From the NCBI GenBank assembly GCA_947491945.1, contig CANLLN010000001.1:62001-126000 (forward strand): a stretch of DNA of 64,000 nucleotides. Direction: 5' to 3'. How positions within the stretch are numbered: position 1 is the first letter of the stretch; each line of letters begins with the position of its first letter. The stretch comes from an uncultured Carboxylicivirga sp. GTDB taxonomy: Bacteria > Bacteroidota > Bacteroidia > Bacteroidales > Marinilabiliaceae. A program made the position numbers and the translations under genes. Below the pieces are notes generated by a model that saw nothing but the letters and a program-made list of their open reading frames with translations, did no database searches and was not told the DNA's origin. Shown piece after piece: positions 26,041 to 33,606 of this stretch.

Positions 26041-27084
26041 TTAAATGATCCAGTTAAACAGATAGCCCAACAGAATAATGAATAAGGTGATGGTGCCAAA
26101 GAAGATGCCGATCAACTTCCATTGCATTACCTTTTTTAGTAAAGTAGCTTCGGGTAGCGACAGTCCTACAACGGCCATCATAAAGGCGATGGCGGTGCCC
26201 AGCGGTACACCTTTGGCAACAAACACCTGAATAACCGGTACGATACCCGCCGCATTGGCATAAAGTGGAACAGCCAGGATGACGGCCAGAGGAATGGCGT
26301 ACCATTTATCTTCTGAGAGGTACTCGGTAAAGAAGTTTTCGGGTACATAACCATGCATAGTGGCACCAATGGCAATGCCAATAATGATGTAGAGAAGAAC
26401 TTTTTGTACAATGCCCCAGCCATCTTTAATAATGGCCGGTAAGCGGTCGAAAAACGATCTTCTTTCACCTTCCCAGCGGCCGGCCTCGATATGTGCATTT
26501 TGCTGAATCTGCTTCACCCAGTCGCTGAGGTATCGATCCAATTTAAATTTCCCCAATATGTAGCCACCTATCATGCCCAATAGAATACCACTGCCGGCGT
26601 AAATCAGGGTGGCTTTCCATCCGAATAAACCCAGGAACATGGCCACGGCCACTTCGTTAACCAGGGGCGATGTAATCAGGTAAGCAAAGGTTACACCCAG
26701 CGGAATTCCGCCCTGCACAAAACCAATAAACAGTGGGATGGAGGAGCAGGAGCAAAAGGGGGTGATGGCGCCAAAGAAGGATGCAAAGAAGTATTGTAAT
26801 CCATACATCTTCTTGGTAGTGAGATATACCCGCAATCTCTCAACCGGGAAATAGGCATTTACCAGCCCCATTAACGAGCTGATAAGAAATAGCAGAATCA
26901 CTATTTTTATTGTGTCGTACAAGAAGAAGTTGATGGCCTGCCCAAAATGACTTTCGGAAGATAAGGGCAATATTTGATAGGTAAAATAGTCAATAAGAGA
27001 TTGCAGGTGGGTATAAAGCGCTAATAAAGAGGGCAAAATAATGATTATTGCGCCCATCCATTTTAATTTTCTTTGCTGTTCCAT
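26041..27084 (-). CDS. UPF0718/YraQ-type permease of the arsenic cluster
   Basis: The 347-residue integral membrane protein has about eight to ten hydrophobic segments and the motif FCSCSSIPLFIGFVQGGIP (about residues 112-130) with the paired cysteines conserved in the UPF0718 (DUF318) permeases, plus a second repeat-like half with PLYANAAGIVPVI. Relatives include ArsP, an exporter of trivalent organoarsenicals, and related metal or metalloid permeases; substrate cannot be read from the sequence. It is the last gene of the ArsR-controlled cluster but has its own copy of the presumed ArsR operator 7 bp upstream of its start codon, so it is probably a separately regulated unit. Confidence 0.85.
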   Translation of the reverse strand: MEQQRKLKWMGAIIIILPSLLALYTHLQSLIDYFTYQILPLSSESHFGQAINFFLYDTIKIVILLFLISSLMGLVNAYFPVERLRVYLTTKKMYGLQYFFASFFGAITPFCSCSSIPLFIGFVQGGIPLGVTFAYLITSPLVNEVAVAMFLGLFGWKATLIYAGSGILLGMIGGYILGKFKLDRYLSDWVKQIQQNAHIEAGRWEGERRSFFDRLPAIIKDGWGIVQKVLLYIIIGIAIGATMHGYVPENFFTEYLSEDKWYAIPLAVILAVPLYANAAGIVPVIQVFVAKGVPLGTAIAFMMAVVGLSLPEATLLKKVMQWKLIGIFFGTITLFIILLGYLFNWII

Positions 27085-27090
27085 CTTAGG

Positions 27091-27112
27091 TTGTTCGTAA
27101 AAAGGCGAATTG
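27091..27112. promoter_or_regulatory. ArsR-type operator, copy upstream of the permease
   Basis: TTGTTCG (27091-27097), 8-bp spacer, CGAATTG (27106-27112). It is the same imperfect inverted repeat as at 28577-28598 and 28910-28931, and lies directly before the permease start at 27084. The left half-site is identical in all three. Confidence 0.7.
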
Positions 27113-27142
27113 AAAAATTAAAAAAATAGTGATACGGTTTAT

Positions 27143-27841
27143 CTATAAAAGCAGTATAATCACGAAGTAAACCCCGGTGCCAATAAACACAAGGGCTATC
27201 ACACGGCGAAACCAGGTTTCAAAGCTTTTTATCTTGTTGTAGAAATTACCAATGGATCCCACGCTGTAGGCAAGTAGCCAGGCGAAGAGGATGACCGGTA
27301 TGCCCGTGGCAAGCGCAAAAACAATAGGTAATAAAAGCCCGCTTGCACTGGCTACTGTCATGGGGATGAGCATGCCAAAGTATAGCACACCGCTATAGGG
27401 GCAAAAGGCCAGGGCAAAAACAAGGCCTAACAAAAGTGCTCCCCAGTAACCCTTACTCGCTTTTTTTTCCAGTTTGTTATTGATGAAATCAAGGCCGGGA
27501 ATAGTCAGTCTGATAAGCCCCAGCATAAACAGGCCAACAATGATTAGCAAAGGCCCCAGTAGTTTTTCGCCCCATTCCTGAAAGAAGCCGGATAGTTGAA
27601 ACTGGCTCAAGCCAAAATAAAAGATCAGCCCCAGGCCTGTGTAAGATAGTGCGCGTCCTAAAGTGTATACCAGGCCGCTGATAAATACCCGTTTCTGGCT
27701 TTTAATGTCCTTGCTTATAAAGCCTATGGCAGTGATGTTTGTAGCCAGCGGGCAGGGGCTGACAGCTGTCATCAGCCCCAGTAAAAATGCTGAAAGAAGG
27801 GGGAGTTGTGAGTTCTCCAATAAATTCTGTAGCACCTCCAT
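27143..27841 (-). CDS. arsG: ArsG-type membrane transporter (CcdA/DsbD-like)
   Basis: The 232-residue protein has six predicted membrane helices and the two CcdA/DsbD-family signature segments SPCPLATNITAIGF (about 28-41) and FCPYSGVLYFGMLIP, each with one cysteine. In Bacteroides the ArsG family sits with ArsE and ArsF and has been described as part of resistance to aromatic arsenicals; the annotation as an arsenical permease follows that family. It begins one base after the arsF stop and follows a thioredoxin-domain lipoprotein, so electron transfer across the membrane to ArsF is an alternative reading from the CcdA-like fold. Confidence 0.8.
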   Translation of the reverse strand: MEVLQNLLENSQLPLLSAFLLGLMTAVSPCPLATNITAIGFISKDIKSQKRVFISGLVYTLGRALSYTGLGLIFYFGLSQFQLSGFFQEWGEKLLGPLLIIVGLFMLGLIRLTIPGLDFINNKLEKKASKGYWGALLLGLVFALAFCPYSGVLYFGMLIPMTVASASGLLLPIVFALATGIPVILFAWLLAYSVGSIGNFYNKIKSFETWFRRVIALVFIGTGVYFVIILLL

Positions 27842-27842
27842 G

Positions 27843-28316
27843 TTACGACATCGATTCTATGGTTTCTTTTATGGTTGCTTCCAGCTTTTCAGGTTTTGTG
27901 CGGGCATTCAAAAAGGCTTCGTTGGTTAAGCTCTTCACCTTATCGCCTTTTATGATGATCAGTGTTTGTCCGTCTACCTTGTATTTTTTAGCTAACTCTT
28001 TTTCTTCCTCGCGATTAATCGAATGAAAGGGAACCGAGTCGTTAAAATACTTAGCCAGCGTTTCCTTACTTACTTTCTCAACGGCTTCGCATGTGGCACA
28101 GCGGCGTGTGGCATGAAAGTAAACCACGCTCACTTTACTGGCATCGATAGATGGGGTAGTGGGTGTTGAGCTGCCGCAGCTCTGAGAGGCACAACCGCTA
28201 CAGGCTGTTTCCGTTTTGCTAACTGTTTTTTCTTTGTTGTTTTTGGTGCTGCTATTGCAGCTTGCAGCCAGTGTCATTCCGGCTAGCATCAAAAATGCGT
28301 AGATTAATTTGTTCAT
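27843..28316 (-). CDS. arsF: ArsF-type thioredoxin-fold lipoprotein
   Basis: The 157-residue protein has a lipoprotein signal ending at Cys20 (LAASCNSS), a short Cys-containing linker (CSGCASQSCGSS, about 39-50) and a thioredoxin-like domain with the CATC redox motif in YFHATRRCATCEAVEKV. The fold, the CxxC and the position between a small thioredoxin and a CcdA-like permease match the ArsF family of Bacteroidota arsenic operons, which has been linked to nitrophenyl-arsenical reduction. The lipid anchor places it in the periplasm, where it could exchange electrons with ArsG. The residues after Cys20 are not acidic, so surface export is not expected. Confidence 0.8.
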   Translation of the reverse strand: MNKLIYAFLMLAGMTLAASCNSSTKNNKEKTVSKTETACSGCASQSCGSSTPTTPSIDASKVSVVYFHATRRCATCEAVEKVSKETLAKYFNDSVPFHSINREEEKELAKKYKVDGQTLIIIKGDKVKSLTNEAFLNARTKPEKLEATIKETIESMS

Positions 28317-28327
28317 AATATTCTGTT

Positions 28328-28555
28328 TTAAAGTAGTTCTTTAATCTCTTCAAGCGATGGTACTCGCCCTTTGACCACAACCTTGCCGTCTATCACCAAT
28401 GCCGGGGTAGTCATTACGCCATAAGTCATTATCTGCATAATGTCCTCTACCTTTTCAATGTTGGCACTGATGCCCTTCTCCTCAACCGCTTTTCGGGTTA
28501 CATCCTCCAGTGATGTACATTTGGCGCATCCTGTACCTAATACTTTAATTTCCAT
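28328..28555 (-). CDS. Small thioredoxin-like disulfide protein (TM0996/MTH895 type)
   Basis: The 75-residue protein starts MEIKVLGTGCAKCTSLE with a CxxC motif (Cys10/Cys13) and ends in a thioredoxin-fold segment VMTTPALVIDGKVVVKGRVP. This is the redox-active disulfide protein 2 family. I chose the ATG at 28555; a TTG two codons upstream is in frame but less likely. It is 11 bp ahead of arsF and in the position of arsE in Bacteroides arsenic operons, so a cytoplasmic redox partner for arsenical reduction or export is likely. The ArsE identity is an inference from gene order. Confidence 0.82.
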   Translation of the reverse strand: MEIKVLGTGCAKCTSLEDVTRKAVEEKGISANIEKVEDIMQIMTYGVMTTPALVIDGKVVVKGRVPSLEEIKELL

Positions 28556-28576
28556 AGTCAATTATTTAGTTGTTCG

Positions 28577-28598
28577 TTGTTCGTGAAAATACGAATTT
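28577..28598. promoter_or_regulatory. ArsR-type operator, copy upstream of arsE/F/G
   Basis: TTGTTCG (28577-28583), 8-bp spacer, CGAATTT (28592-28598); an extra half-site TGTTCG lies adjacent at 28571-28576. It stands 22 bp upstream of the thioredoxin-like start codon, where a bound repressor would block transcription of the redox genes. Confidence 0.72.
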
Positions 28599-28613
28599 AT
28601 GTATCAAAAATTT

Positions 28614-28898
28614 TTACAAGTCGAAAAATGCTTTTAATAGTTGCTGTGCTTCTTTCCAGTTCTCCTTGTTAATGCAGTATTTAATGCGGGGAGCCTCTGT
28701 TTCACCCTGAATCAGTCCGGCTTCTTTCAGCTCTTTCAGGTGCTGCGACAGGGTTGATTTGGCAATGGGCAGTACTTCTGTCAGATCCCCACTGTAGCAG
28801 CAGGCTTGATTCGATAGCGTTTGCAAAACAAAAATACGCACCGGATGACCAAGTGCTTTGGCGTAGCGGGCAAGTCTTTTTTGTGGATCCTGAATCAT
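28614..28898 (-). CDS. arsR: ArsR-family metalloregulatory repressor
   Basis: From the ATG at 28898 the protein has 94 residues and a winged-helix domain with KALGHPVRIFVLQTLSNQ and the recognition helix AKSTLSQHLKELKEAGLI. The pair of adjacent cysteines (QACCYSG, Cys38 and Cys39 by my count) could bind As(III), in a position different from the ELCVCDL site of E. coli ArsR. A longer form from a TTG at 28931 is possible but would extend into the operator and the -7 element. Its own promoter overlaps an inverted repeat, so it should be auto-repressed. Confidence 0.88.
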   Translation of the reverse strand: MIQDPQKRLARYAKALGHPVRIFVLQTLSNQACCYSGDLTEVLPIAKSTLSQHLKELKEAGLIQGETEAPRIKYCINKENWKEAQQLLKAFFDL

Positions 28899-28909
28899 AG
28901 ATAAACTAC

Positions 28910-28936
28910 TTGTTCGTAATATTGCGAACAAAGATA
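28910..28936 (-). promoter_or_regulatory. arsR promoter overlapped by an ArsR-type operator
   Basis: Perfect inverted repeat TTGTTCG (28910-28916), 8-bp spacer, CGAACAA (28925-28931). On the minus strand a consensus -7 element TATCTTTG (28929-28936) overlaps one arm, so a bound repressor would cover the promoter and start site. It is the best-conserved of the three copies. Confidence 0.78.
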
Positions 28937-29034: not shown

Positions 29035-29409
29035 TTAAACCTCAATGATTTTGATGGGAATATCCACGACGGCCTGATAATCTTCGCCCGCTTCAATCAT
29101 ATCCTCATCGTCCTTATCGCAATACCAGCTGATAGTAGCTTTGTTGTTGCGTTTATAGAGCTCATTTATTTTTTTGAATACATTGAGCAGGTTAATGGAT
29201 GAAATGGTATTAAAATATTCCAGTTGAATATCTACGCGGGTTACCGGTGATGGATTTGATATGTACTTATCAAGCCATTCCATGATCGGATCGAATAACA
29301 AGTGCGCATTTTCCGGAATAGATCTTCCTTTAATTTGAATATATCCCTCGCGGGCATTAAAATTCAAATAAGGCGTTTTGTTGGTCGCTTCTCTTACAAA
29401 TGGTTCCAT
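29035..29409 (-). CDS. SiaC-like regulatory protein (DUF1987)
   Basis: The 124-residue protein matches the SiaC/DUF1987 family: LNFNAREGYIQIKGRSIPEN near the N-terminus and a central VDIQLEYFNTISSINLL with the Thr/Ser that is the phosphorylation target in Pseudomonas SiaC. SiaC takes part in a partner-switching system that controls diguanylate cyclase activity there. No SiaA/SiaB homologue is in the window, so its partners are elsewhere or different. It seems monocistronic, between the arsenic cluster and the sulfur module on the same strand. A STAS-type antagonist (10584) is also encoded nearby, but no link is evident. Confidence 0.8.
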   Translation of the reverse strand: MEPFVREATNKTPYLNFNAREGYIQIKGRSIPENAHLLFDPIMEWLDKYISNPSPVTRVDIQLEYFNTISSINLLNVFKKINELYKRNNKATISWYCDKDDEDMIEAGEDYQAVVDIPIKIIEV

Positions 29410-29642: not shown

Positions 29643-30839
29643 TTAGCTGCAGCCTCCTTGCACGCGTTTGGTTTTTTTAACCACCGGTTTATCCAGGTTG
29701 GCCACTGCTTCGCCAATTTCTATGAGTTTTTGTGCTGCTTCTTTTCTAAAGACATAGGTTTCATGATCCATTTTGTTTTTGGGCTGTTCATCACCCAGCA
29801 TAAAAAAGTTCTGCTGAAACTGATCGGCTGTGCTGTTGAGGGCATAGTTGTCGGCTTTTCCATGGTATTTCGATACCAAACAGGCGCGTTGCGCTTGTTC
29901 ATATGAGGCTCCATAGAATACGTTGGTTTTAATATTCTGCACTATTCGGTTTATGTTATCGTGTTTATGCAACTCTTCCAGTGGAATGTTAATCGCCGTG
30001 GGGATGTGAAATTTCTTGAATTCTTCGGGCGATCGTACATCCACCACATTGTATAAATAATACTGGTTCATTAGCTCGTAAGCCAGCTTGTCATCGGCCA
30101 TCATCTGTGGCTTACACTCCCCGGCGGCCAGCTTGGCATCAATGCGTTTATTCATTAACTCGCCTCTGCTGGGGGTGATGATCGTAAGGAGTACTGTGAT
30201 GACGGCCAGGCCCACAGCAATGCTGTATTTACTTATATCTTTTTTGAGCCATTGTGTGGTTCGGTTATTCACTTTGTTTTCGATAAAAGTTACCCCGATA
30301 AAAGCTCCAGTAGCCACAAAAATCATCATAAGCGCAAAGGCCTCGCGCGAGATGCCCATCATCTCAAATACCAGCAGGTAGCCCAGGTTTTCGGCTACCA
30401 TTAAATCTTTAACCAGCGGATAACTCTCCACAAAGGCAAAGATGCCCAGTCCGGCACCAAACACAAAGGCCCAGCCGTCGATTTTACCGCTGGCAGCCGC
30501 CACCACGCTGGTGCCCGGACAAAAACCGCCGATAATAAAGCCGGCCCCCATAATTACGCCGCCTATGATGGCCGCCCACAGGAAGGTTGGGTTGATAAAT
30601 ATAATGTCTACATCCAGCAATTGGAGGTGATTAAGAGCCGTGATGCCTACCATAGCCGTCACACCGGCCGTGAAAAACACCTTGAGCACGGTAAAGTCGT
30701 ATCCGTAGAACAGCCCTACTAATTTACGCGTTGAGCCAAATCCGGCCTGCTCAAGGGCAAAGCCGAAGCCCATTCCAACGATGATGGCAATAATAAAGTT
30801 GAATTCGTTACTGATAATATCCGGTACTAATGGTCCCAT
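29643..30839 (-). CDS. YeeE/YedE transporter half fused to a cysteine-less rhodanese domain
   Basis: From the ATG at 30839 the protein has 398 residues. Residues 12-222 form about six membrane segments of the YeeE/YedE (sulf_transp, TsuA-like) family, with the conserved Cys107 in GGFCPGT. Residues about 262-346 form a rhodanese-like domain (YLYNVVDVRSPEEF, HIPTAINIP), but the active-site loop reads VFYGAS, with Gly310 at the expected cysteine. The tail is basic and ends in GGCS, placing a single Cys at 397. By the positive-inside rule the rhodanese part may be periplasmic; this is inference. A TTG start at 30902 would overlap the preceding gene. It is the last gene of the cytochrome operon, one base after the first YeeE half. 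Thiosulfate uptake or handling is likely. Confidence 0.85.
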   Translation of the reverse strand: MGPLVPDIISNEFNFIIAIIVGMGFGFALEQAGFGSTRKLVGLFYGYDFTVLKVFFTAGVTAMVGITALNHLQLLDVDIIFINPTFLWAAIIGGVIMGAGFIIGGFCPGTSVVAAASGKIDGWAFVFGAGLGIFAFVESYPLVKDLMVAENLGYLLVFEMMGISREAFALMMIFVATGAFIGVTFIENKVNNRTTQWLKKDISKYSIAVGLAVITVLLTIITPSRGELMNKRIDAKLAAGECKPQMMADDKLAYELMNQYYLYNVVDVRSPEEFKKFHIPTAINIPLEELHKHDNINRIVQNIKTNVFYGASYEQAQRACLVSKYHGKADNYALNSTADQFQQNFFMLGDEQPKNKMDHETYVFRKEAAQKLIEIGEAVANLDKPVVKKTKRVQGGCS

Positions 30840-30840
30840 C

Positions 30841-31374
30841 TTAATTCGTTTTATTGATCCACAATTTTCTGAAAAACCAGGCGATCGCATAGGCCATGCC
30901 AAAGATCGACATCATGGTGATAATGCCACCAAAAGACATGACTGCCATACCGCTGAGTGCCGCTCCGCTGGTACAACCGCGTGCCAGCTGACTGCCAAAA
31001 CCAAAGAGGGCACCGCCAAAAACGGCACCGGCAATGCGAACACCATTGCGTACGCCCGGCCCCTTTTCAATCTTCACACTTACGCGGTTGGCAATAACGG
31101 CCGACAAAAAGGCACCGATAACCACTCCTATTACCTCAAATACCAGCCACGACTTAAGAGGCCCACCGGGGTTATTTTCCTTCTGACTGATGTAATAGTC
31201 AGTGGTGGCGGCATGCGCCGGTGCCAGCGTCTCTACTGTTTGAACTACAAAACTTTTGATGGCACCGCTGGCTCCCAATCCACGTCCTGTTACATAAATG
31301 GTAGTTAGTAGCACAAATCCCAGAAAGAATCCGGCCAAATAGGGGTTCATATATTTTTTAGGTGCTTCGTTCAT
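30841..31374 (-). CDS. YeeE/YedE family transporter half (thiosulfate uptake)
   Basis: The 177-residue membrane protein has about four hydrophobic segments and the signature QLARGCTSGAALSGMA with Cys134, one of the cysteines that relay thiosulfate in TsuA-type transporters by family knowledge. The protein is half the length of full YeeE, and the next gene carries the second half with GGFCPGT, so the two gene products probably form one transporter. It overlaps the cytochrome b gene by 4 bp (ATGA) and is followed after 1 bp by the second half, so the unit is translationally coupled. Confidence 0.87.
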   Translation of the reverse strand: MNEAPKKYMNPYLAGFFLGFVLLTTIYVTGRGLGASGAIKSFVVQTVETLAPAHAATTDYYISQKENNPGGPLKSWLVFEVIGVVIGAFLSAVIANRVSVKIEKGPGVRNGVRIAGAVFGGALFGFGSQLARGCTSGAALSGMAVMSFGGIITMMSIFGMAYAIAWFFRKLWINKTN

Positions 31375-32024
31375 GATGCTTCATTTTGAGTGTTGTTAAG
31401 GTCCTTTTTTTCTTCTGTATCATCCTCCAGTAAGTCCCAGCCTGTTAGCATGGCTTTAATATTACTGGTAACGCTGTGCCCCGTAGTGGTCATGTACACA
31501 TGCACAACAATAAAGGCCATGAGTAACCAGGCTCCCAGGGTATGCAGCCAGGCAATCCAGGACAATGGTATGTCGCTAACCACGATAATATCATTCACAT
31601 CAAAGGTTTTGTAGTACAGATACAGTAAACCGGTAAGTATCATAACCGGCGCCATCAACAGCTTAAAGCCCAGGTAGGTAATGGCCTGCAGTGGATTGAG
31701 CTTTTTGCGTGCTGATTTAATAGTGGGATGGGGGGCATTTATGAAAATGCCCACGGTGTAATATTGAACCTGATCCTTTAGTTTCGAGAGGGTAGGGATG
31801 TATTGCTTCCACTCACCGGTGGTGAAATGCCAGAAGATGGAGAAGGCTATAAGGGCCAGTAATAAGTAGGAGGCAACACGGTGGAAGCTGACTGCTTTTT
31901 CGAAGCCCAGTAAAGAAAAGGATCCGTGTATTTCAAAGCCTGTAAGAGCCAAAAACAGGATGAGTGCGGCCTGGCTCCAGTGCCAGAATCGCTCAAATTT
32001 CTTATAGATATATACTTGTTTCAT
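31371..32024 (-). CDS. Membrane cytochrome b (b561/thiosulfate-reductase type)
   Basis: From the ATG at 32024 the 217-residue protein has four to five membrane helices with histidines in heme-binding positions (His15 in RFWHWSQ, His48 in SFHRV, His66 in FWHFTTGEW, and His in WLHTLGAW and VVHVYMTTTGH). It resembles the di-heme cytochrome b subunits that oxidise quinol and pass electrons to periplasmic enzymes. The neighbour upstream is an octaheme cytochrome c, so quinol-to-octaheme transfer is the likely job. An alternative ATG at 32066 overlaps the cytochrome c gene by 35 bp and precedes no membrane segment, so the shorter start is preferred. Confidence 0.87.
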   Translation of the reverse strand: MKQVYIYKKFERFWHWSQAALILFLALTGFEIHGSFSLLGFEKAVSFHRVASYLLLALIAFSIFWHFTTGEWKQYIPTLSKLKDQVQYYTVGIFINAPHPTIKSARKKLNPLQAITYLGFKLLMAPVMILTGLLYLYYKTFDVNDIIVVSDIPLSWIAWLHTLGAWLLMAFIVVHVYMTTTGHSVTSNIKAMLTGWDLLEDDTEEKKDLNNTQNEAS

Positions 32025-32031
32025 AATGGTC

Positions 32032-33606
32032 TTATTTTGATTCCAGTTCGTTACGACGGTAGGCATTAATCAGGCGGGCGCTGCCATGAATCGTCACACC
32101 GGCCAGGGCGCCCCACAATAGCAGGCTTCCCAATAGGTCAATCCAGTCGTTTTTATCGCGGCCCGGTAGGTAGAAGTCATTCAGCGATGCCAGGCGACCG
32201 TTCTCCCGTGCATGGCATTCCTCGCACGATAAGGCTTGTTCTGCCGGGGATACCATGTGGTTGACGGGCCAGTACATTTCCGTTTCGATAAACTCAAACT
32301 CACCGCTGAATGGTAGCCCGACCCCTTTCATACCGGCTTCGGCAGCCAGTTTCCAGTCAAAGTCCTTCCAATAGGCACTGTCGCCCTTGGCTTCGGCATA
32401 AACTTTGGGTTGGATAAGCAGTTGGGTGTTCGGATCGTAAATCTGATCGCCACGGTGCACCTTCACGGGGTATATTTTTGAATGACTGTCGCTGGCCGAG
32501 CCCAATAAACGATTGATTTGTACCGGCAAACTTGTTACCGTATCACCCAGTTTGTAATGTTGGGCATTGCCGTTAAACCATTTGTATTCAGGCTTTACCT
32601 TATTAGCCCATTCGAACTCACCTTTAATCGATAGGTAGGTGTGGTTGCCCAGCGAATCCTCCTCGTGATAAGGCATGCCTTGCTCATCCAGGCGGCCTGC
32701 TTCTGACCAGCGCCAGGCCATCTTGGTAGAGTTTTCTTTGGCGTAAATGGGTATGTGACAGGTCTGGCAGGCAACTTTTGAGAAGTGTCGGTTCAATACA
32801 TCATCGAGGTGGGGTTTGGTAGTGTGGCACTCTTCACAGCGCAATCGATCAACATCGGTTGATGATACCGAGTAGAGTTTTCCCTTTATGCGGTGCTCAT
32901 CGGCCGAATGACAATCAACACAGTCCATGTTAATGCCATTGGCCGCCATGTGCACATCCACATCACGGTCGCAGGATAATAGTGCTTCTTCCAGATCGCC
33001 ATGCTTCACATTGTTGCCGCCGCCACTGTAGAAATGGCAGGCACCGCAATTGATTTTATTGGGACGTCCCACGCTTTGGGCCACTTTAATCAGGTTCACG
33101 CTACGATCGGGGTAACCCGCCTGAGCCGAGCCTTTGATGTATTCCTCGCTGCGGTCGTGGCAAACCATGCAATCCACATTACGGGCATTGTTAAAGTCGA
33201 AAGTATTGTGCGACATACCAAAGCCGATGTGGCAGGCAGCGCAAGCTTGCTCGTTGGTGCTGGCGCCAATGCAGAAGTTGTTCAACACATTTTTTTTCCC
33301 CATTTTTGAGATGCCCTTGCCCTCTACATAGGCCACCCGTTCCCAGTTCCAGTGGCTCGACCGCATAATTTCTTCGTGCCGCTTATTATGGCAGGTAAGA
33401 CAGGCCTCCGTTACTTCTTGAGGGGTTTTAAAATTCTGTTTGAGAATGTCGAATTGACGGTGGTCCACCGAGGGCTCATGCTTATTGGCAAAGCTTTGCT
33501 TAAGCTGATATTGCGATAAATTAAGGGGCTTGTCACGATGAAAGAAATTCATCAGTAACAAAACAATGAACGTTAGTAATACCGCGATGGTTATTGTTTT
33601 ATTCAT
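32032..33606 (-). CDS. Octaheme c-type cytochrome, tetrathionate reductase (Otr) family
   Basis: The 524-residue protein has one N-terminal membrane or signal segment (MNKTITIAVLLTFIVLLLM), exactly eight CxxCH heme sites (starting at about Cys69, 122, 146, 187, 229, 257, 280 and 461) and a C-terminal hydrophobic helix (about 493-510) that anchors it on the periplasmic side. The spacing, with the last site far from the others, fits the octaheme tetrathionate reductase family. Shewanella Otr reduces tetrathionate, and also nitrite and hydroxylamine in vitro. Here it heads an operon with a cytochrome b and two YeeE-type transporter halves, which supports tetrathionate or thiosulfate chemistry coupled to respiration. 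Confidence 0.9.
   Translation of the reverse strand: MNKTITIAVLLTFIVLLLMNFFHRDKPLNLSQYQLKQSFANKHEPSVDHRQFDILKQNFKTPQEVTEACLTCHNKRHEEIMRSSHWNWERVAYVEGKGISKMGKKNVLNNFCIGASTNEQACAACHIGFGMSHNTFDFNNARNVDCMVCHDRSEEYIKGSAQAGYPDRSVNLIKVAQSVGRPNKINCGACHFYSGGGNNVKHGDLEEALLSCDRDVDVHMAANGINMDCVDCHSADEHRIKGKLYSVSSTDVDRLRCEECHTTKPHLDDVLNRHFSKVACQTCHIPIYAKENSTKMAWRWSEAGRLDEQGMPYHEEDSLGNHTYLSIKGEFEWANKVKPEYKWFNGNAQHYKLGDTVTSLPVQINRLLGSASDSHSKIYPVKVHRGDQIYDPNTQLLIQPKVYAEAKGDSAYWKDFDWKLAAEAGMKGVGLPFSGEFEFIETEMYWPVNHMVSPAEQALSCEECHARENGRLASLNDFYLPGRDKNDWIDLLGSLLLWGALAGVTIHGSARLINAYRRNELESK

Follow-up and report, generated by a model that had tools for sequence, protein, structure and literature searches.

An octaheme cytochrome operon of Carboxylicivirga with a two-part YeeE-type transporter and a cysteine-tailed rhodanese-like arm

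SoxY is a periplasmic sulfur carrier with a C-terminal GGCGG motif, the sulfur reductases PhsABC/PsrABC come with a periplasmic rhodanese, and Sud of Wolinella presents polysulfide sulfur. Here, we analysed a stretch of 64,000 nucleotides from an uncultured Carboxylicivirga sp. of the Bacteroidota (contig CANLLN010000001.1, positions 62,001 to 126,000; in the following the window), in which one operon encodes an octaheme cytochrome of the octaheme tetrathionate reductase family (Otr), a b-type cytochrome (CytB) and the two halves of a YeeE-type transporter (YeeA and YeeB, together YeeAB), YeeB being extended by a rhodanese-like domain ending in a GGC-type tail. This extension, the arm, resembles SoxY in carrying a GGC-type C-terminal tail on a part predicted to be periplasmic, but has a rhodanese fold according to Pfam and Foldseek instead of the SoxY fold and does not end in GGCGG. 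As in PhsABC/PsrABC and Sud, a quinol-linked periplasmic sulfur reductase would be combined with a rhodanese partner; however, the enzyme is an octaheme and not a molybdopterin enzyme, and the rhodanese is fused to a transporter half and lacks the catalytic-loop cysteine.

Compared by protein alone, Otr of the operon shares with the octaheme tetrathionate reductase of Shewanella oneidensis (structure 1sp3) the TIGR04315 family, eight CXXCH motifs and the equivalents of Lys153 and Cys64, but has a C-terminal helix, a b-type cytochrome, an Asn at the position of Asp150 and, as company, a sulfur transporter with a carrier-like arm. The cellular role of Otr is open, with tetrathionate, nitrite and hydroxylamine all given as substrates (PMC4484225). 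In Thermosulfurimonas dismutans, Otr has a cytochrome b subunit encoded nearby and, unlike here, no YeeE or rhodanese partner is named in the available text (PMC4911364). In lucinid symbionts, otr adjoins soxY-S3 and soxZ, which encode a sulfur carrier of the periplasm, a setting that differs from our case in that SoxYZ is not rhodanese-like and no fused transporter is described in the accessible part of the article (PMC11237559). YeeA and YeeB resemble PmpA/PmpB and TsuA/SoxT, PmpA and PmpB corresponding to YeeE halves, in being two half-size proteins with one conserved cysteine each (PMC11582611), and differ from them by the extra helix and the rhodanese-like arm of YeeB and by scores far under the TsuA cut-offs. 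By what route the related SoxT transporters are supplied with sulfur has so far been conjecture (PMC11582611). For Dethiobacter alkaliphilus, gene clusters encoding both octaheme cytochromes and rhodanese-domain proteins are reported; unlike here, these octahemes are only distantly related to Otr/SirA (20 and 22-23% identity), and the available text mentions YeeE/YedE nowhere and describes no C-terminal cysteine tail (PMC10376724).

Otr with cytochrome b, otr beside soxYZ, pairs of YeeE halves and octahemes clustered with rhodanese genes are already published separately. Apparently new are the Otr-YeeAB operon, the GGC-tailed rhodanese-like arm and the sharing of this module among three kinds of partners, none of which we found in the literature outside subscription papers and bioRxiv; the accessible parts of PMC12142623, PMC11237559 and PMC8528874 describe no Otr-YeeE operon. 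An earlier note on this DNA, made from the letters alone, had called a coupling of tetrathionate respiration to uptake of the thiosulfate product undescribed to its knowledge.

The operon and its proteins

The earlier note had read four tightly spaced genes as one unit encoding an eight-heme cytochrome of the tetrathionate reductase family, a b-type cytochrome and two YeeE halves. Coordinates and spacing of the unit (a 7-bp gap between Otr and CytB, a 4-bp overlap of CytB and YeeA and a 1-bp gap between YeeA and YeeB) agree with our analysis (Table 1), and both cytochrome assignments were confirmed. The two YeeE halves were recognised correctly as well, both passing PF04143, although the extra helix and the rhodanese-like domain of the last gene had gone unnoticed.

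Table 1. Position of the operon genes and of the arm in the window
Feature	Position	Strand	Length	Remarks
Otr, octaheme cytochrome c	32032-33606	minus	524 aa	hydrophobic N-terminal segment and C-terminal transmembrane helix
CytB, b561-type membrane cytochrome	31371-32024	minus	217 aa	
YeeA, C-terminal half of a YeeE-type sulfur transporter, PmpA-like	30841-31374	minus	177 aa	
YeeB, N-terminal YeeE half, PmpB-like	29643-30839	minus	398 aa	extra helix, rhodanese-like domain and GGCS end
Rhodanese-like domain and GGC tail of YeeB (putative carrier arm)	29643-30164	minus		

For comparison, we took the best 80 named Otr loci from a contig scan, which samples the vicinity of the window's Otr and in which 576 of the 589 stretches matched proved to encode a relative, and classed them together with an earlier set (L numbers in the following denote loci of either kind, with or without Otr), giving 120 Otr loci and 115 distinct ones after removing five duplicates; L067 (98 bits) was dropped beforehand. 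Otr of the window is a member of TIGR04315 (579 bits, cut-off 375), aligns with 1sp3 over residues 52-467 (E 7e-130) and contains eight CXXCH motifs, as do 112 of the 115 distinct Otr, the other three having seven. Counted by hand on the alignment, K201 corresponds to Lys153 and C112 to Cys64 of 1sp3, the lysine ligand and the active-site cysteine of that enzyme, and both are invariant in a 15-row Otr alignment (A1). The Asn replacing Asp150, assigned in the same way, was considered as a marker of rhodanese-linked Otr and rejected, since nine of the 24 loci lacking a partner of this kind also show the motif GGNN.

CytB matches PF01292 (98 bits), its best NCBIfam model being the thiosulfate reductase cytochrome b PRK15006 at 102 bits and under the cut-off of 204. 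With a limit of 600 bp for CytB and two contig-edge rows set aside, the C-terminal Otr helix and a CytB directly downstream are found together in 104 distinct loci and are both missing in 8; among the 105 loci having the helix, only L137 shows no CytB within this distance. As helix and CytB co-occur, a membrane-bound chain from quinol to Otr, as proposed for T. dismutans, is likely. A distinct branch of the Otr family is formed by short Otr of ~460 aa (L034, L036, L042, L043, L045, L059, L065), without C-terminal helix, CytB and rhodanese in the sequence covered. Directly upstream of Otr, small regulators are encoded that are of MerR type in L037-L039, L041, L046 and L047 and of MarR type in L049, L052, L053, L056, L058 and L060; one of each was checked by Pfam, the MerR example having a cysteine-rich C-terminus.

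YeeA covers positions 174-306 of the 310 in the PF04143 profile (75 bits, cut-off 27) and YeeB its N-terminal part (48.5 bits). The only cysteine of YeeA, Cys134, is kept in 105 of 105 rows, duplicates included. YeeB was compared in an alignment of 44 fused YeeB rows (A2), omitting two of the 45 fused YeeB listed, L102, whose tail is lost, and L118. Only two cysteines are common to all 44 rows, i.e. Cys107, which lies in the transporter half as part of its CPGT motif, and Cys397 of the tail (106 and 396 in A2, in which the first Met is missing). In L044, YeeB is split over two open reading frames (ORFs), with the rhodanese domain, its GGC tail and the last stretch of the membrane part all in the second. 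An assignment of the Yee halves to TsuA or to the selenium-related YedE was rejected by the curated cut-offs: YeeA reaches 46.4 of 400 and 23.1 of 645 bits with the TsuA models, in which YeeB is not listed, and the selenium transporter models YedE/FdhT and YedE score 29.6 of 350 and 17.4 of 200 bits.

The rhodanese-like domain of YeeB matches PF00581 (35 bits, cut-off 22.2), and in the predicted structure residues 241-380 show predicted local distance difference test (pLDDT) values of 82-94 by block. Among the best 50 of 580 Foldseek matches of the YeeB model, the recognisable titles are those of rhodanese-domain proteins. The model does not allow reading a docking site of the tail, since pLDDT is 50-83 by block in the membrane part and <50 in the last four residues. 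Judged by eye on the alignment, the catalytic-loop cysteine is missing from the YeeB-fused domain, and no cysteine column of the rhodanese part other than the tail is common to more than 8 of the 44 rows. The tail itself, by comparison, is retained: YeeB of the window ends in GGCS with Cys397 at position -2 from the C-terminus, and the 44 rows end in GGC (35), GGCS (5), GGCGV (2), GGCA (1) or GGCG (1), leaving 0 to 2 residues after the cysteine. In 25 Otr-linked loci compared (window included, L044 as two pieces, L037 missing), all ends are GGC, GGCx or, once, GGLCS. The last 25 residues carry a net charge of -2 to +6 over the 44 rows, mostly positive. Mean net charges of the YeeB loops alternate between one side (+2.0, +1.0 and +3.1) and the other (-0.7, -1.1, -0.6 and -0.5, where -0.5 belongs to the start of the rhodanese part); because of this alternation, the positive-inside rule predicts the rhodanese-like domain to face the periplasm.

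Cysteine tails are not confined to the fused domain. Small rhodaneses ending in GGC and with a lipoprotein-like start, judged by eye, follow Otr-CytB in L119-L121, L129, L135, L140, L144 and L158 among others, and those beside Otr without YeeAB (15 ORFs of this type) retain the catalytic CKKGxR loop (CxKGxR) besides the GGC end. Pfam confirmed a rhodanese domain in all seven proteins scanned from small-rhodanese loci, and none of six rhodaneses scanned reached the cut-off of an NCBIfam model. As a control, we took the best PF00581 matches from relatives of the window genome (n=30). Ten of these end in GGC, nine lying beside Otr/CytB and one beside NrfD/YeeA/YeeB, and none of the other 20 ends in Cys; the 30 are not independent cases, since the genomes are close kin and six of the 20 are mercaptopyruvate-type genes ~3 kb from a GGC-ending one on the same contig. 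Profiles blind to the tail, applied to the 120 Otr loci and to 27 YeeA loci without Otr, yielded 177 rhodanese ORFs, 143 of which have a cysteine within the last three residues. The 34 without it are distributed over the mercaptopyruvate type (14 of 15), the tandem (13 of 28), the anchored (5 of 45), the fused (1 of 73) and the small type (1 of 16).

Recurrence of the module and exchange of its partner enzymes

In 296 Bacteroidota genomes searched, Otr exceeds the TIGR04315 cut-off in 41 genomes at 44 places, and YeeA relatives (E 1e-10 or better) occur in 50 genomes at 53 places. The YeeAB-rhodanese module is shared by three kinds of partners. Otr is the partner at 26 of the 53 YeeA places, corresponding to 26 of the 44 Otr places and including the window, and 25 of these also have CytB; a PhsA-like enzyme encoded by genes for a molybdopterin protein, an iron-sulfur protein and NrfD (MoPt-FeS-NrfD) is the partner at 21 places and a sulfurtransferase at five, the remaining place lying at a contig edge (L073, 3.4-kb contig). 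A chance neighbourhood of Otr and the Yee genes is rejected because the adjacency recurs across genomes. The molybdoenzyme is closest to PhsA and not a named member of it, since two proteins scanned score 470 and 518 bits, under the cut-off of 694; the membrane subunit scanned belongs to PF03916. The sulfurtransferases are two- or three-domain rhodaneses of the mercaptopyruvate type with a signal-like start (by eye), two of which were scanned, 3-mercaptopyruvate sulfurtransferase being the nearest model at 95 and 107 bits (cut-off 250).

A rhodanese-like domain with a cysteine in the last three residues accompanies the module at 51 of the 53 places, the exceptions being L095 (none found) and L098 (truncated rhodanese). 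Wherever found, it follows YeeB, and it is fused to YeeB at the 26 Otr-type places (counting the divided YeeB of L044) and at one of the remaining places, L084. The MoPt-FeS-NrfD-YeeA-YeeB-rhodanese clusters are L072, L074-L077, L082-L084 and L086-L098, many with tails such as KKKKKEGC; beside the two- or three-domain sulfurtransferases (L078-L081, L085), the tails end in MGC or FQC. The Otr places without Yee genes comprise ten of one family (code f18) and one other, all with CytB, and seven short Otr without CytB. Wide context was taken for 40 of the 44 Otr places and 1.5-kb flanks for the other four (genus code g49), in whose genomes no YeeA match was found.

The 115 distinct Otr loci of the wider sample divide into 72 with both YeeA and a Cys-tailed rhodanese, 17 with such a rhodanese and no YeeA, 2 with YeeA alone and 24 with neither, so that a Cys-tailed rhodanese is present in 89. 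The search for co-occurrence of the four-gene order, recommended by the earlier note, found Otr, CytB, YeeA and YeeB in this order on one strand in 67 of the 74 distinct Yee-type Otr loci. Off this order, L063 and L147 lack a gene in the stretch covered, and in L165, L170, L174 and, divergently, L175 and L176 the Yee genes belong to a molybdoenzyme cluster next to Otr, bringing MoPt-FeS-NrfD, YeeAB-rhodanese and Otr-CytB together within one stretch. In L175 and L176, the divergent arrangement of both clusters may reflect shared regulation. Record titles assign Yee-type loci to, among others, Ignavibacteria, Acidobacteria, Planctomycetales and metagenome-assembled genomes of candidate division LCP-89; named strains are Mariniphaga anaerophila DSM 26910 (L103) and Gaoshiqia sediminis A06 (L104). 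A quick maximum-likelihood tree of Otr places most carriers of Yee genes and rhodanese in one large group, with L063 far off among the short Otr on a long branch, and no fewer than nine changes of the Yee-plus-rhodanese label are required, even on starred branches.

A possible sulfur hand-over and its rivals

We consider the chances to be about even (probability roughly 0.5) that Otr and CytB of this operon form a quinol-linked reductase for sulfur compounds in the periplasm, working with a two-subunit YeeE-type channel that bears a rhodanese-like periplasmic arm. We infer the substrate, the direction of flow and the sulfur-carrying role of the tail as follows. Electrons from quinol would enter CytB and travel along the Otr hemes as far as the Lys-ligated one, where a compound with an S-S bond, e.g. 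tetrathionate, thiosulfate or polysulfide, would be reduced. Cys397 of the GGC tail would bind sulfane sulfur, stemming from the substrate or the product of the reductase, as persulfide or thiosulfonate in a SoxY-like manner, and the arm would pass it to the cysteine path of YeeAB, i.e. Cys107 of YeeB and Cys134 of YeeA, for import; import by YeeAB is suggested by analogy to TsuA/YeeE and SoxT. Inside the cell, a protein combining reductase, rhodanese, TusA and DsrE parts could convert the imported sulfane sulfur to sulfide. The operon suggests a direct hand-over of sulfur between Otr and the transporter arm, the GGC-tailed domain being perhaps the physical link of both. The carrier and import parts of this model are proposed because the arm resembles the carrier arm of SoxY and because otr adjoins soxYZ in lucinid symbionts, and a role of Otr with sulfur (or selenium) is favoured over one with nitrite because the module is common to sulfur-type partners and the genome encodes a separate NrfA. 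The functional link of Otr and a sulfur transporter, as supposed by the earlier note, hence gains support from the kept gene order and from the sharing of the module with a PhsA-like enzyme and sulfurtransferases, whereas tetrathionate as substrate and thiosulfate as cargo stay suppositions. In favour of tetrathionate, the otr transcript of an acidobacterium was 36-fold up with this compound at day 8 (p = 0.0488; PMC8528874).

Several findings weigh against this hand-over. Both Yee halves lie far under the TsuA cut-offs, and the operon contains no gene for the TusA-like YeeD/TsuB; no YeeE structure is among the best 50 of 580 Foldseek matches of the YeeB model. The 24 Otr loci with neither Yee genes nor a Cys-tailed rhodanese, at least four of which are short of downstream sequence, do without the module, and some of its members deviate from the pattern, the tail being lost in L102 and the rhodanese truncated in L098 or missing in L095. 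Otr of Shewanella reduces nitrite and hydroxylamine as well (PMC4484225), and Caldithrix abyssi, which has Otr, failed in growth tests to show the predicted respiration of sulfur, polysulfide or thiosulfate (PMC5317091). If the hand-over exists, YeeE-type channels gain a built-in periplasmic sulfur donor. A partner common to Otr and to a molybdoenzyme of the thiosulfate/polysulfide type points to sulfur as the element handled, and the last cysteine of YeeB offers a single-residue handle on the system.

A broader and more tentative idea, to which we give distinctly lower credence, is that Cys-tailed rhodanese arms form a hub through which periplasmic sulfur generally passes in Bacteroidota and neighbouring phyla: secreted sulfurtransferases would load the arms, Otr and PhsA-like enzymes would use them as protein-bound substrate, and half-YeeE channels would take the sulfur off again. 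In this view, Otr would mirror the Sox system in the reductive direction, working on sulfur bound to the carrier; what it truly reduces in these bacteria would be the arm in its persulfidated state and not free tetrathionate.

Otr could also reduce tetrathionate with free thiosulfate entering via YeeAB as via TsuA, the rhodanese tail being a structural or regulatory add-on. Membership in PF04143 and the conserved cysteine columns fit this, as does the uptake of thiosulfate by YeeE with YeeD (PMC11073785); we nevertheless regard it as unlikely, given that Cys-tailed rhodaneses stand beside Otr without YeeA in 17 of the 115 distinct loci and that the tail cysteine is retained though the catalytic-loop cysteine is lost.

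Next in rank, and likewise improbable as the main function, the arm could chiefly feed the reductase, presenting polysulfide sulfur in a Sud-like manner to Otr or the PhsA-like enzyme, with YeeAB only balancing or exporting sulfur. Cys-tailed rhodaneses with an intact CxKGxR loop beside Otr-CytB without a transporter speak for such feeding, as do the five loci joining molybdoenzyme, YeeAB-rhodanese and Otr-CytB. That the rhodanese follows YeeB, and is fused to it in the Otr type, in turn fits the transporter as its first partner. Sud-like feeding is a close rival that may be true alongside the hand-over to YeeAB, since the rhodanese also adjoins Otr where the transporter is absent.

We think it quite improbable that the system handles selenium or tellurium oxyanions instead of sulfur. 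No protein scanned reached the cut-off of a selenium model, and the substrates given for Otr are sulfur and nitrogen compounds (PMC4484225). Selenium stays in consideration because selenite reductases near the Psr/Phs clade have rhodanese neighbours too, as stated for SrrA, which affiliates with this clade and has rhodanese-like neighbours (PMC8528874); three mercaptopyruvate-type rhodaneses also match ExtH weakly, at 71-77 bits with a cut-off of 200.

A pure nitrite or hydroxylamine reductase with the Yee genes as chance neighbours, for which the reduction of both compounds by the Shewanella enzyme (PMC4484225) and the role with nitrite proposed for Otr of Deferribacter autotrophicus, which is without NrfA (PMC6896113), could be cited, is very improbable and disfavoured by the module partners, the recurring adjacency, the NrfA-family match of the window genome (589 bits) and the 25 largest clusters of Otr neighbours, among which no nitrogen-cycle gene was recognised.

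Genome context and neighbouring genes

The window genome contains one Otr and one PF04143 pair. The only TusA match of this genome is part of the protein with reductase, rhodanese, TusA and DsrE parts considered above for conversion to sulfide, which is encoded on another contig, comprises 834 aa and has a pyridine-nucleotide reductase (Pyr_redox) as its reductase part. No siroheme sulfite/nitrite reductase (PF01077) was matched in the genome (11 of 14 control genomes positive), and a search run without a positive control gave no match to a molybdoenzyme of the L074 type. Of 11 relatives of the same genus, nine carry Otr-CytB together with a small rhodanese that has a GGC tail. Among the best 80 named loci, the Otr nearest to that of the window is from Saccharicrinis sp. 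UBA6048 (86%), which has two Otr operons: L099 contains YeeAB, and L135 a mercaptopyruvate-type sulfurtransferase together with a small rhodanese whose tail is GGGC.

In the window, a row of genes on the minus strand at 26041-28931 encodes an ArsR-type regulator, a thioredoxin-like protein of the ArsF family (94 bits, cut-off 60), an ArsG-like DsbD_2 permease (321 bits, cut-off 200) and an ArsP/SaoE-like permease. As members of the system these were rejected: among 147 loci (E 1e-8), all of them recur only in the sister locus L099 and three in L144. Directly downstream of the operon, at 29035-29409, lies the gene for a regulatory phosphoprotein of the SiaC family (PF09345, 128 bits), a 57% identical copy of which is found in L099.

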